Below, piece by piece: positions 14,484-18,935 of a stretch of 64,000 bases of DNA. The DNA comes from Ancylobacter defluvii (GTDB lineage: Bacteria > Pseudomonadota > Alphaproteobacteria > Rhizobiales > Xanthobacteraceae), in assembly GCF_018390605.1 (NCBI RefSeq), contig NZ_JAHBGD010000028.1, positions 1-64,000 of the forward strand, given 5' to 3'. The notes below the pieces were generated by a model that had not been told where the DNA came from, searched no databases, and saw nothing but the letters and a program-made list of their open reading frames with translations. The position numbers and the translations under genes were made by a program. Position 1 is the first letter of the stretch. The number at the start of each line of letters is the position of its first letter.

Positions 14484-15911
14484 TCACCGCACCAGCACGT
14501 TGCGGAACTGCCAGGGGTCGCTCTCGTCGATGTCCTCGGGGAACAGGCCGGGACGGCCGTCCAGCGGCGTCCAGTCGGTGTAGTAGCCCTTCAGCGTGCC
14601 GAGATAGGGCCGCTGGATCTCGAGGCAGCGCTTGTAGTCCATCTCGTCGGTCTCGACGATGCCGGCCTCGGGGTTCTCCAGTGCCCACACCATGCCGGCG
14701 AGGATGGCGGAGGTCACCTGAAGGCCGGTCGCGGTCTGGTAGGGCGCGAGGTCGCGGGTTTCCTCGATGGTGAGCTGCGAGCCGTACCAGTAGGCGTTCT
14801 TGGCATGGCCGAACAGCAGCACGCCGAGCTCGTCGCGCCCGTCGACGATCTCGTGCTCGCTCAGGATGGTCCATTCGCCCTGGAACTTGCCCTCATTGCC
14901 GAACATCTCGTGCCACGACAGCACTGCGTCGTTGCAGGGGTGATAGGCGTAGTGGCAGGTCGGGCGGTAGGCGACCGAAGCGCCTTCGCGCACGGTGAAG
15001 TAGTCGGCGATCGAGATCGATTCGTTGTGCGTGACGAGGAAGCCATGCTGGGCGCCGAGCGAGGGGCACCAGGTGCGCACCTTGGTGGCGGCGCCGGGCT
15101 GCATCAGGTAGATCGCCGCGCCCGAGCCCTGATTGTGCGAGCGGGCGGTCTCCGGCTGCCAGGTCTCGTGGGTGCCCCAGCCGAGCTCGGCCGGCTGCAG
15201 GCCCTCGGAGACGAAGCCCTCCACCGACCAGGTGTTGATGAAGTGGCCGAAGGGGCGCGGGGCGCTCGCGCGCTGGGTGTCGCGCTCGGCGATGTGGATG
15301 CCCTTGACGCCGAGCGTCTGGGCAAGGCGCGCCCAGCCCTCGCGGCTGGTCGGCTCCTCGAAGGCGGTACCGGTATCGGTGGCGATGTCGACCAGCGCCT
15401 GCTTGACGAACCACGACACCATGCCCGGATTGGCGCCGCAGCAGGAGACCGCGGTCGGCCCGCCCGGATTGGCGCGCTTGGCGGCCAGCATGCTCTCGCG
15501 CAGCGCATAGTTGGAGCGGCTCGCCGGGGTGGCGTTCTTGTCGAAATAGAAGCCGAGCCAGGGCTCCACCACGGTGTCGATATAGAGCGCGCCCAGCTCG
15601 CGGGCGAGCGTCATCATGTCGACCGAGCCGGTATCGACCGAGAGGTTGATCACGAAGCCGCGGCCGCCAGTGGTCAGCAGCGGCGTCAGGATTTCGCGGT
15701 AGTTCTCCTTGGTGATCGCCAGCTGCAGAAAGGTGATGCCGCGCTCGTCGAGGAGGGCGCGGTTGTCGTCGACCGGATCGATGACGGTGAGACGGTCCTT
15801 GTCGAAGTCGAAATGCCGTTCGAGGAGCGGCAGGGTACCACGCCCGATCGAGCCGAAGCCGATCATCACGATGGGACCGTCGATTTTTCCATAGACCGGC
15901 CAGACCGACAT
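14484..15911 (-). CDS. hss: Homospermidine synthase
   Basis: A 475-residue enzyme that transfers an aminobutyl group to putrescine with NAD+ to give sym-homospermidine, the main long polyamine of many Rhizobiales. The NAD-binding motif GFGSIG is at 18-23. The family marks DTVVEPWLG, SCCGANPGMV and HNQGSGAAIYLMQPGA are seen in order. Length matches the family (about 475). It starts at ATG 15911, with AAGGAG upstream. With the decarboxylase at 17167-18297 it forms a two-step route from ornithine to homospermidine. Confidence 0.95.
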   Translation of the reverse strand: MSVWPVYGKIDGPIVMIGFGSIGRGTLPLLERHFDFDKDRLTVIDPVDDNRALLDERGITFLQLAITKENYREILTPLLTTGGRGFVINLSVDTGSVDMMTLARELGALYIDTVVEPWLGFYFDKNATPASRSNYALRESMLAAKRANPGGPTAVSCCGANPGMVSWFVKQALVDIATDTGTAFEEPTSREGWARLAQTLGVKGIHIAERDTQRASAPRPFGHFINTWSVEGFVSEGLQPAELGWGTHETWQPETARSHNQGSGAAIYLMQPGAATKVRTWCPSLGAQHGFLVTHNESISIADYFTVREGASVAYRPTCHYAYHPCNDAVLSWHEMFGNEGKFQGEWTILSEHEIVDGRDELGVLLFGHAKNAYWYGSQLTIEETRDLAPYQTATGLQVTSAILAGMVWALENPEAGIVETDEMDYKRCLEIQRPYLGTLKGYYTDWTPLDGRPGLFPEDIDESDPWQFRNVLVR

Positions 15912-16236
15912 TCTCAGGGACACTCCTTTGTTGGCCTCAATACTTTTAGGTGGGGGCACCATGGTGGGGCGGGGATGCAACGTCAATAGCGACGCCGCCC
16001 AGGGTGGGGCAAGCCTGCCGCGCCGGTGATGACGCGCGCGTGACGTCGCGGCGAAAGGCGGCGGACGCCGCCCCGGGGGACCGCATGCGAACGGTCTGCG
16101 CACCGGGGCGGCGCCGGAGCATGTTCCGCGCCGGCCGCGCCACGAAGGCCCGGCCGTCGGAACATGCGTCAACCCGTCGAACCGAAAGCGCCTCCCTGCC
16201 GGTCGGACCTTAGTCCGAGGGGAAGGCGCTCATGCC
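15912..16236 (-). terminator. Gene-free spacer with a large terminator hairpin after the GNAT gene
   Basis: No gene is seen in these 325 nt. At 16187-16230 an extended hairpin lies just past the GNAT stop on the minus strand: AGCGCCT with AGGCGCT outside, and CGGAC with GTCCG inside around TAAG. It is followed by TTTC. It probably ends or attenuates transcription between the GNAT gene and hss, so hss may have its own promoter in 15912-16180. Confidence 0.5.
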
Positions 16237-16905
16237 TCACGCCGAGCGCTTGAGCGCGGCGGGCACGGATTCGCGGGCGATCAGCTCGCTGAGGCTGGGG
16301 GCGGCGAGGAAATCGCCGGTGGGGCTGACGAGGCCGCGCGCGCCCTTCAGCGCGCCGGACCGCAGCTCCAGGCCGAGGAAACGCGCGCGCTCGAAGGCGC
16401 CGGGCAGCCACAACCCATCGGTGAGCCCGCGCTCGAAGCCGAAGCGGGCGTAATAAGGCGCGTCGCCGACCAGCAGGATGGCGCCATGGCCGAGGCGGGT
16501 CGCCTCGTTGATGGCGGTGACCATCATCGCCTTGCCGAGGCCGCGGTCGCGGAACCACGGATGCACCGCCAGCGGGCCGAGCAGCAGCGCCGGCCGCGCC
16601 GGGCCCGCCGTGACGTGCCACATCCTGAGCGTGCCGACCACCCGGCCATCGGCGCCATGGGCGGCGAAGGCGAGGCCGTCCGCCGGCATGCGGCCCTCGC
16701 GCAGGCGCTCGCTCGTCTTGGCCAGACGCGCGGCGCGGCCGAAGGCGAGGTCGAGCAGCGCCTCGCGCTGGGCAATGTCGGCCGCGCGCTCCAGCGAGAT
16801 CGCCGGCGCGGGACCGGCGAAATCGACCGGCGCGGGGGCGGCGGCGTTGACCAGAGCGGACTGGACCAGAGCAGCGTGGGCGAGATCGGCGACGGCACGT
16901 TCCAT
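16237..16905 (-). CDS. GNAT-family N-acetyltransferase
   Basis: A 222-residue acetyltransferase with the acetyl-CoA site HPWFRDRGLGKAMM (motif A, R/QxxGxG/A form) and downstream VGDAPYYARFGFERG, typical of GNAT group YhbS-like proteins. ATG 16905 follows GGAGG; the frame runs further upstream without similarity. It sits between ornithine decarboxylase and homospermidine synthase, all on the minus strand. A polyamine or related amine substrate is thus plausible but unproven. Confidence 0.8.
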   Translation of the reverse strand: MERAVADLAHAALVQSALVNAAAPAPVDFAGPAPAISLERAADIAQREALLDLAFGRAARLAKTSERLREGRMPADGLAFAAHGADGRVVGTLRMWHVTAGPARPALLLGPLAVHPWFRDRGLGKAMMVTAINEATRLGHGAILLVGDAPYYARFGFERGLTDGLWLPGAFERARFLGLELRSGALKGARGLVSPTGDFLAAPSLSELIARESVPAALKRSA

Positions 16906-17168: not shown

Positions 17169-18297
17169 AGATCACATATGAGCGCAGCGGGTCGAAGCCG
17201 TTGAACGCCACCGCCGAATAGGTGGTGGTGTAGGCGCCGGTGGCCTCGATCAGCACCTTGTCGCCGATGGCGAGCGAGATCGGCAGCTCGATCGGGGTCT
17301 TCTCGTAGAGCACGTCGGCCGAATCGCAGGTCGGGCCGGCCAGCACGCAGGGCTCGGTCGCCTCGCCGTCCCGCGCGGTGCGGATCGGGTAGCGGATCGC
17401 CTCGTCCATCGTCTCGGCGAGGCCGCCGAACTTGCCGATGTCGAGATAGACCCAGCGCATGGTGTCGGTGTCGGCCTTCTTCGAGATCAGCACCACCTCG
17501 GCTTCGATCAGGCCGGCGGCGCCGACCATGCCGCGGCCCGGCTCGATGATGGTCTGCGGGATGGCGTTGCCGAAGTGCCGCGACAAAGCGCGGAAGATCG
17601 CCTCGCCATAGGCCTCGGCGGCCGGCACGTCCTGCAGGTACTTAGCCGGGAAGCCGCCGCCGAGATTGACCAGCGACAAGGTGAAGCCGCGCTCGGCGCA
17701 CTCGGCGAAGATCTTCGAGGCGGACGCGAGAGCGGCGTCCCAGGCCTCGACGTTCTTCTGCTGCGAGCCGACATGGAACGAGACGCCATACGCCTCGAGG
17801 CCGAGGCGATGGGCGTGCTCCAGCACGTCGACCGCCATTTCCGGCTCGCAGCCGAACTTGCGCGACAGCGGCCATTCGGCGCCGGCGCCGTCGCACAGGA
17901 TGCGGCAGAACACCTTGGCGCCGGCGGCGGCGCGGGCGACCTTCTCGACTTCCGCCTGGCAATCGACCGAGAACAGGCGCACGCCCAATTCGAAGGCACG
18001 GGCGATGTCGCGCTCCTTCTTGATGGTGTTGCCATAGGAGACGCGGTCCGGCGTGGCGCCGGCGGCGAGCGCCATCTCGATCTCGGCGACCGAGGCGCAA
18101 TCGAAGCAGGAGCCCAGCTCGGCGAGCAGGGAAAGGATTTCCGGCGCCGGGTTGGCCTTCACCGCATAGAAGACACGGGTGTCCGGCAACGCATGGGCGA
18201 AGGCGCCGTAATTGGCGCGCACGACGTCGAGATCGACGACGACGCAGGGACCATCCTCTCGTCGATTGCGGAGGAACTCGCGAATACGGTCGGTCAT
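17167..18297 (-). CDS. Ornithine decarboxylase (PLP, alanine-racemase fold)
   Basis: A 376-residue type III-fold decarboxylase that makes putrescine from ornithine. Visible residues are Lys47 in YAVKANP (PLP Schiff base), HVGSQ (176-180), GGGFP (214-218), EPGRG (253-257, PLP phosphate binding) and CDSADV (325-330), whose Cys-Asp is typical of ornithine or lysine/ornithine decarboxylases rather than diaminopimelate decarboxylase. It heads the polyamine cluster and has an unusually long 5' leader. The alternative is dual lysine/ornithine activity, which sequence alone does not exclude. Confidence 0.92.
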   Translation of the reverse strand: MTDRIREFLRNRREDGPCVVVDLDVVRANYGAFAHALPDTRVFYAVKANPAPEILSLLAELGSCFDCASVAEIEMALAAGATPDRVSYGNTIKKERDIARAFELGVRLFSVDCQAEVEKVARAAAGAKVFCRILCDGAGAEWPLSRKFGCEPEMAVDVLEHAHRLGLEAYGVSFHVGSQQKNVEAWDAALASASKIFAECAERGFTLSLVNLGGGFPAKYLQDVPAAEAYGEAIFRALSRHFGNAIPQTIIEPGRGMVGAAGLIEAEVVLISKKADTDTMRWVYLDIGKFGGLAETMDEAIRYPIRTARDGEATEPCVLAGPTCDSADVLYEKTPIELPISLAIGDKVLIEATGAYTTTYSAVAFNGFDPLRSYVI

Positions 18298-18777
18298 GGC
18301 GCTCTCCCACTGACCCGAAGCTGCGACCCGTGGAGACGATCCCTCGCCCGCGCGGCGCCAATGTGCCGCGTCGGTGGCGAGAATGCGCCTCCGTTCGCCG
18401 TCCGCACGGTTTTTGCCGCTTGGCCGGAAGAAGTGGAGCCGTGGCAGCGATGCGTTCGGCGCGCATGTGGAGAGCGCGACCGTTCGATCGATGCCTTCGC
18501 TTGGTACGGGAAACCCGACCGCACGCCCGGCAAGAAGTAGTGCCTCTTCAGTTTCCCGACCTTTGGAGGGCCGACAGAGACCAAAAAAGCCCGCTACGTC
18601 GTTGCTTCAAGTCACGTTCCCAGCTGAGAGCTGAGTGCGCCGGTTTCGCCTCCGGCTACCGATCTTCCTGGCGACTTTCCGGCCTCTTGTCCGGACTTCC
18701 GCCGACCGGCACGCGACCACAGGCACGTGCGAATATTGGGCGAGGGGTGATGTAGGGACATTCGCCGTCACATGCAA
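18298..18777 (-). promoter_or_regulatory. Long leader and candidate promoter of ornithine decarboxylase (speF-type position)
   Basis: On the minus strand a TTGCAT box (18772-18777) and a CTACAT box (18750-18755) with 16 bp between give a leader of about 450 nt. It contains short hairpins, such as CGGG/CCCG around TTT near 18508-18518 and AGCT/AGCT near 18622-18632, and a T6 run near 18584. A frame opening with TTG at 18584 reads through the leader and ends at 18294, overlapping the decarboxylase start by 4 nt (ATGA). Alphaproteobacterial ornithine decarboxylase genes are known to carry the speF leader RNA. I infer such an element here but cannot align it. Confidence 0.4.
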
Positions 18778-18935
18778 GCGGGTTTTTGCAGGAATTTGCC
18801 ACCCCGCCGAACCATGGCCGAATCGACAGCCGCGGCGGAGCTCTGCCCGACAGGCCGCTCCCGGCCGGAGCCGGTGCTTGTCAGGGGCGGGGGAGTGTGT
18901 TCTGTTTTCGTTCCAGTTCGGTCGAGGAGGCGGCG

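Follow-up and report, generated by a model that had tools for sequence, protein, structure and literature searches.

Which regulatory RNA occupies the long leader of the ornithine decarboxylase (ODC) gene of Ancylobacter defluvii, and how far does it extend? The gene starts at position 18297 on the minus strand of contig NZ_JAHBGD010000028.1 (GCF_018390605.1), within a window, the whole stretch of DNA that was analyzed, of 64,000 nucleotides. An earlier note, made from the sequence alone, had proposed a gene-free leader of about 450 nt with a far-upstream promoter, local hairpins, a run of six T residues, and a speF-type RNA. The length was well judged: counted from the inferred transcription start at 18741, the leader comprises 444 nt. 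We give an even chance to the reading that this leader is a single composite cis-regulatory RNA, in which one promoter is followed by an ar45 domain, a U6-GGUCUC linker, a speF domain, and a third hairpin (Table 1).

Two Rfam families in one leader

A cmscan search with Rfam 15 over the whole window returned only two families above their cut-offs, on the same strand (minus) and 8 nt apart. The speF model (RF00518), which the earlier note had anticipated, matches with 54.6 bits against a curated cut-off of 37 (E 1.1e-10), and the ar45 model (RF02347), a second match absent from that note, reaches 54.2 bits against a curated cut-off of 40 (E 5.4e-09). The locus is an ordinary member of both families. 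Rubella_3 and group-II matches in the leader fell under the cut-off (E 0.21 and 0.26) and were taken as chance.

The speF match ends 144 nt before the start of the ODC gene, which is of the COG0019 type according to Pfam and PDB matches. Alignment to the speF model places hairpin 1 and a GGC/GCC hairpin, with the conserved AGAGGC and GUGCGG, in the window; the leader of this biosynthetic gene contains a conserved structured domain, as is expected of a riboswitch. Among relatives, the stem of hairpin 1 displays two-sided changes, and its segment carries the loop motif NUCCANN in 192 of 193 leaders. The second stem-loop of the speF core is paired in 75.6% of alignment cells, with two-sided changes at four of six pairs. 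The GGC/GCC pairing is 100% paired and nearly invariant, and an alternative speF pairing, UGCC/GGCA, is paired in 93.1% of cells, with almost no covariation.

The far-upstream promoter took the form of CTTGCA-17-CTACAT, which ends 8 bases upstream of the ar45 5' end. Its CTTG recurs 35 to 38 nt before that end in 168 of 192 relatives, compared with 3, 1, and 0 of 192 in neighboring windows. A scan of the leader region for E. coli-type promoters found none, and a scan of the same region for short-loop terminators also found none. The run of six T residues is present too, as part of ar45, the domain that pairs with speF. An uninterrupted TTTTTT tract occurs in 171 of 193 leaders and an interrupted one (CTTTCT, TTCCTT) in 13, and GGTCT or GGTTCT follows the tract in 183. 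The GGUCUC that follows it in the window is almost as conserved as the U-tract itself, and a plain terminator would not need such conservation.

Local hairpins are likewise present, with modest fold energies. Folded alone, ar45 pairs GCCC at its 5' end with GGGC at its 3' end (z -2.19 versus dinucleotide shuffles), and the whole 444-nt leader reaches a z of -2.09 on the same comparison. For the leader as a whole, minimum-energy folding yields another structure, in which the proposed fold does not appear; support for the proposed fold is comparative, not thermodynamic. In one family (f23; G068, G208, G135, and G228), ar45 is only about 57 nt long and retains GCCC...CGCACGUGCC and GCAACGACGGUGCGGGC, and these shortened sequences thus show the minimal ar45 core.

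Table 1. Features of the ODC leader and operon in the window
Feature	Positions	Strand	Basis
Promoter: CTTGCA (18778-18773), 17 nt, CTACAT (18755-18750)	18750..18778	-	sequence and conserved CTTG
ar45 domain, RF02347	18585..18741	-	54.2 bits; 5' end is the inferred transcription start
GUAG, pseudoknot strand 1	18594..18597	-	covariation
U6 (18588-18583) and GGUCUC linker (18582-18577)	18577..18588	-	conservation in 193 leaders
speF domain, RF00518	18441..18576	-	54.6 bits, cut-off 37
speF hairpin 1, loop CUCCAAA (18568-18562)	18557..18573	-	two-sided stem changes; loop motif
CUAC in speF apical loop, pseudoknot strand 2	18537..18540	-	covariation
speF-core second stem-loop, GGUCGGG/CCCGUACC	18503..18520	-	pairing and two-sided changes
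Third hairpin, loop CUCCACA (18472-18466)	18460..18478	-	seen in most leaders, training and held-out
Likely ribosome-binding site, GGGAGA	18303..18308	-	sequence
Ornithine decarboxylase (ODC), 376 aa	17167..18297	-	Pfam and PDB matches
GNAT acetyltransferase, start codon inferred	16237..16905	-	Pfam PF13508 and PF00583
Homospermidine synthase, start codon uncertain	14484..15929	-	PDB 4plp

Tandem arrangement and gene neighborhood

The side-by-side placement of the two families is not peculiar to A. defluvii. At a match threshold of E 0.001, speF was found in 116 and ar45 in 101 of 249 genomes sampled from the order, and neither was found in 14 control genomes. In 98 of the 101 ar45-bearing genomes, both matches lie on the same strand, 6 to 12 nt apart (exactly 8 nt in 74); of the other three, one has its matches on different contigs and two have no speF match. 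Seventeen speF matches came without an ar45 match, and a pattern search recovered the 5' and 3' ar45 blocks in all 16 that were fetched, strongly diverged in G044. A sample of 385 genomes from the class yielded 10 genomes outside the order with speF, all of them with ar45 8 to 9 nt upstream. A weak ar45-only match in this class sample (G506; 29.5 bits) had no ODC that could be found alongside and was taken as false.

ODC is the constant neighbor. It was present in all 111 fetched speF loci (5 of the 116 matches, G033, G246, G052, G207, and G104, were left unfetched), with its start 24 to 336 nt downstream in 110 of them, all but G162. An independent search of GTDB genomes, with a pattern that describes the ar45-speF junction, returned at least 119 stretches, of which 80 led to loci; among the matches listed, ODC lies within 800 nt downstream in 74 of the 80, and the other 6 end too early for a judgment. 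In the sampled loci, ar45-speF is associated with ODC alone. Measured from the ar45 5' end, the ODC gene begins after 407 to 433 nt in nine genomes of f24, the family with the strongest matches, and after 394 nt in Sinorhizobium meliloti. Five relatives in the family of the window (L391, L392, L393, L394, and L395) carry two ar45-speF elements, 4 to 6 kb apart; in L391, these lie at 917 and 4800 on the plus strand, and the second precedes a second ODC, downstream of homospermidine synthase. A record titled Candidatus Kuenenia stuttgartiensis MAG (L238) also holds an element of the alphaproteobacterial type with ODC. Its offsets and identity equal those of L142, and it is probably a misplaced contig.

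Downstream of the leader, the operon runs from ODC through a GNAT acetyltransferase to homospermidine synthase, and the last two are likely cotranscribed with ODC. The ODC product has Pfam domains PF02784 and PF00278, and its best PDB matches are lysine/ornithine decarboxylases (5gjm, E 7.6e-62); NCBIfam gave it only lysA, under the cut-off, and gave no family for either of the other two proteins. Homospermidine synthase matches PDB 4plp, a homospermidine synthase, with E 1.3e-248. Among the named loci, 33 extend at least 3.5 kb beyond ODC; the GNAT gene comes next in all 33, and homospermidine synthase is found in 26. The S. meliloti gene downstream of the leader is odc2, followed by an N-acetyltransferase gene; published passages credit Odc2 with about 90% of the putrescine in that species, and those of one study state that homospermidine was left out for want of a commercial product.

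Base pairs between the two domains

Since pairs covary between the domains, comparison makes it nearly certain that ar45 and speF form one pseudoknotted RNA element. The predicted pseudoknot, as shown by covariation, consists of three to four base pairs that join the 3' internal loop of ar45 to the apical loop of speF. GUAG faces CUAC in the window, and GGUG and CACC occupy the corresponding sites in S. meliloti. From family to family, GUAG/CUAC, GGUG/CACC, GUAA/UUAC, GGAU/GUCC, and GAAC/GUUU interchange, with the ar45 strand directly after CGAC. Both strands are annotated as unpaired in the Rfam speF and ar45 models.

Leaders were taken from 201 sources, of which 193 gave complete cores and eight (L177, L178, L201, L207, L213, L216, L232, and L234) were cut or ambiguous. 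Some sources overlap (e.g., G162 is L194), and tests were therefore run on distinct rows (183) or on distinct tetranucleotide-loop combinations (65). For the first analysis, the conserved blocks of the 193 leaders were aligned without reference to structure (183 distinct rows, 213 columns), and covariation was scored with an APC-corrected G statistic. The background consisted of 40 null alignments, made by reassigning substitutions branch-wise on a FastTree tree. First among all column pairs came ar45 column 21 with speF-loop column 7 (E 0.019, extrapolated from the 40 nulls), and a second interdomain pair, ar45 column 24 with speF-loop column 6, ranked fourth (E 0.062, likewise extrapolated). 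The other places in the top five went to stems of the leader, namely the third hairpin (rank 2, E 0.022), ar45 (rank 3, E 0.042), and hairpin 1 (rank 5, E 0.21), again with extrapolated E values.

Counts of pairs point in the same direction. With any loop window allowed, all four pseudoknot pairs form in 170 of 193 leaders and three in the remaining 23. At a fixed position, the 65 distinct combinations average 3.677 pairs, versus 2.797 with shuffled loops (z 9.4; largest of 2000 shuffles, 3.092), and offsets of -10, -7, and -6 give z values of -3.6, -2.1, and 0.1. When each of the 21 families is represented by one combination, the observed mean of 3.857 is reached by none of 5000 shuffles. The pairs were resolved individually on a second alignment, built with MAFFT from 65 contiguous segments: pair 1 is GC in 47 and GU in 18; pair 2 is GC in 26, UA in 22, AU in 12, and other in 5; pair 3 is AU in 45, UA in 17, and other in 3; and pair 4 is unpaired in 13 of 56. 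In this alignment, the covariation score of the pseudoknot is 0.620, versus 0.230 (standard deviation, 0.025) for shuffled loops, none of 500 reaching it, and it is at most 0.115 when the strands are slid. Two of five pair-count measures, double-change pairs and further pair types, did not exceed the shuffles (458 and 454 of 500).

Further genomes of three families, all of them also represented in training, served as a hold-out of 130 loci and 135 elements. Eleven loci of training genomes were omitted, and L396, L398, L436, and L439 gave no parse. The core of three pairs, picked after the four-pair hold-out test and after the covariation score of the MAFFT alignment, is complete in 188 of 193 training leaders and in 126 of 135 held-out elements, a figure that includes three (L406, L423, and L447) on the same contigs as training L189, L202, and L243. 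Among 25 unseen combinations, the three pairs average 2.800, versus 2.526 in shuffles, a difference reached by 1 of 5000; the four-pair version of the test is weaker (3.200 versus 2.907; 35 of 5000). The shared contigs do not affect the 25-combination test, which cannot contain training combinations.

A longer interdomain helix, noticed by eye between ar45 CGCACGU and speF ACGUGCG, was not adopted. It is broken by U to A in 11 sequences and by C to A in 3, ar45 showing no matching change, the helix falls outside the best 60 column pairs, and matching changes occur in family f35 only. In the window, ar45 CGCACGU (18731-18725) and speF CGUGCGG (18525-18519), both on the minus strand, are largely complementary, and the pairing is broken in Bradyrhizobium-type sequences.

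How do these results relate to published descriptions of the two families? In the passages of Corbino et al. (2005; PMC1273637) that describe speF, the extended element begins near a putative transcription start with a stem that has a large insertion, about 80 conserved nucleotides follow, and no structure could be assigned to additional conserved blocks within the final 150 nt. The present element resembles theirs in scoring over the threshold of RF00518, preceding ODC, and beginning near a putative transcription start. It differs in that a pairing between its two parts and a structure for the blocks before the start codon are given here; the RF00518 model itself spans only the second half of the element. 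The alpha-r45 small RNA (SmrC45 or Smr45C; RF02347), which passages of Valverde et al. (2008) list as speF, has its likeness in the score over threshold, the pairing of the 5' and 3' ends, and the U-run that comes after; it is catalogued as a free small RNA, whereas here it makes up the first half of an ODC leader and pairs with speF. Passages of Corbino et al. (2005), Valverde et al. (2008), PMC2245857, PMC2873474, PMC7266159, and PMC7143759 make no mention of an ar45-speF pairing, most subscription journals lying outside this scope, and Greenlee et al. (2018) are reported to have added conserved sequence and structure to speF. The pseudoknot may therefore be new, or it may already be in print, for example, in the update by Greenlee et al.

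Possible functions of the composite leader

We consider it very probable that the leader acts in cis on ODC. The element would control an operon for putrescine and homospermidine, and we tentatively place its decision point, with somewhat less than even confidence, at U6, where the closing stem of ar45 and the U-tract lie together. Termination or cleavage at U6 would free ar45 as the small RNA of Sinorhizobium and Bartonella, which would make ar45 a shortened form of the ODC leader; published passages assign the end of ar45 in S. meliloti to a U-run. Upon read-through, speF would dock on ar45 via the pseudoknot and ODC mRNA would be made. A pathway product would set the balance, with homospermidine as the best candidate: the operon encodes the synthase for it, and the list of six tested compounds does not include it. 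Intrinsic termination at U6 cannot be steered by the speF loop, which is transcribed only later; the pseudoknot would therefore act on the read-through RNA, in which it may fix ar45 after the decision, protect the U-rich linker, or make a binding pocket complete. Riboswitches embedded in terminators, such as the HMP-PP class (Atilho et al. 2019), offer a possible analogy, with a closing stem that doubles as a terminator. Unlike that class, the present element has no known ligand and carries a second domain after the U-run.

What reads the leader might be a protein rather than a metabolite, and to this possibility we assign a real, if minor, share. Hairpin 1 and the third hairpin would then be paired sites that set translation or stability. 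Upstream of ODC, a third hairpin with a 7-nt NUCCANN loop is found under the strict definition in 85 of 110 leaders and, in the hold-out, in 97 of 134 (mononucleotide shuffles average 0.6 and never exceed 3); when one closing mismatch is permitted, it is found in 92 of 110. Hairpins with CTCCA in the loop occur in 67 of 110, whereas dinucleotide shuffles average 3.0 and reach 7 at most. The stems of the third hairpin vary with compensation. It begins 55 to 93 nt before the start codon in 77 of 92 leaders; in the window it begins 175 nt before that codon and falls within the 3' portion of the Rfam speF match. The near-constant NUCCANN of hairpin 1 and the negative metabolite binding in passages from 2005 also favor a protein. 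The most conserved internal loops, however, are located in ar45 and speF rather than in these hairpin loops. The loop class common to hairpin 1 and the third hairpin is also the sequence of a tRNA-Trp anticodon loop; mimicry of that loop is not favored, as the position after UCCA varies freely. We know of no protein that binds NUCCANN-type loops, which weighs against a protein reader.

Direct sensing of a polyamine by the leader strikes us as doubtful, and the fuller version, that speF is a riboswitch, as unlikely. In the latter, the internal loops of ar45, the pseudoknot, and the speF loop would jointly form a single pocket, with homospermidine or some other alphaproteobacterial polyamine as its ligand; occupation of the pocket would shift the balance between ar45 release and ODC mRNA synthesis, and ar45, once released, may have a trans role as well. 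Passages of Corbino et al. (2005; PMC1273637) report no binding for six pathway metabolites, homospermidine not being among those named, with a construct that ran from -400 to +3 in A. tumefaciens; this construct may or may not include the whole 5' strand of ar45. Should the fold extend over both catalogue entries, any construct that ends at the family border would lack half of it. Passages of a 2020 review note that a missing part may be the reason why orphan aptamers failed in binding tests, and those of a 2024 review state that there is no strict evidence yet for speF as a riboswitch.

A switch at the level of translation, in which the loop or the 5' strand of the third hairpin pairs with the ribosome-binding site, is a distinctly unlikely explanation. 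Nine bases of the window, GCGCUCUCC (18477-18469), are complementary to GGAGAGCGC (18307-18299), and UCUCC of the third-hairpin loop is complementary to GGAGA of the ribosome site. Across families, however, a leader's own ribosome site pairs with the hairpin loop no better than that of another family (-5.91 versus -5.72 kcal/mol; own better in 54%), and the distance between hairpin and gene is highly variable. Masking of the ribosome site by the third hairpin finds no support as a general rule, the complementarity not being species-matched.

It is less probable still that two separate RNAs are involved, ar45 as a trans-acting, Hfq-bound small RNA with its own terminator and speF as an unrelated downstream leader. 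Published passages do report that S. meliloti and Bartonella bacilliformis accumulate ar45 alone, as a small RNA, and that it coprecipitates with Hfq in S. meliloti; in Bartonella, a speF probe detects an RNA of more than 700 bases. Against separate RNAs stand the covarying interdomain pairs, the near-constant spacing, and the one conserved promoter; released ar45 may still have a trans role as a by-product. The length of the S. meliloti RNA (SmrC45 or SmelC706) is given in passages as 181 nt (2007) and 148 nt (2010), and one table gives RpoH1/2 for its promoter. The GCCC start used here for ar45 agrees with the 148-nt length.

SpeFL, the gammaproteobacterial speF arrest-peptide leader, controls ornithine decarboxylase through a leader peptide. 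That a short frame similarly senses ornithine on the ribosome here we find hardly credible: the enzyme reaction is shared and the leader is long, but unlike SpeFL, the RNA core has no conserved frame through it, and the strong signals are base-pair covariation. Open reading frames of at least 60 aa do cross the leader mechanically; segment lengths of the conserved core vary among relatives by non-multiples of three (speF loop, 9 to 14 nt; hairpin 1 segment, 35 to 44 nt), and the leader is thus gene-free, as the earlier note had it, as far as tested.

Returning to the composite leader, the pseudoknot lends itself to a test by two changes that carries its own control, and the operon points to a candidate ligand, homospermidine, that is absent from the published list of tested compounds. 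Taken together, the relatives indicate that two RNA families with separate catalogue entries are halves of one ODC-leader RNA.
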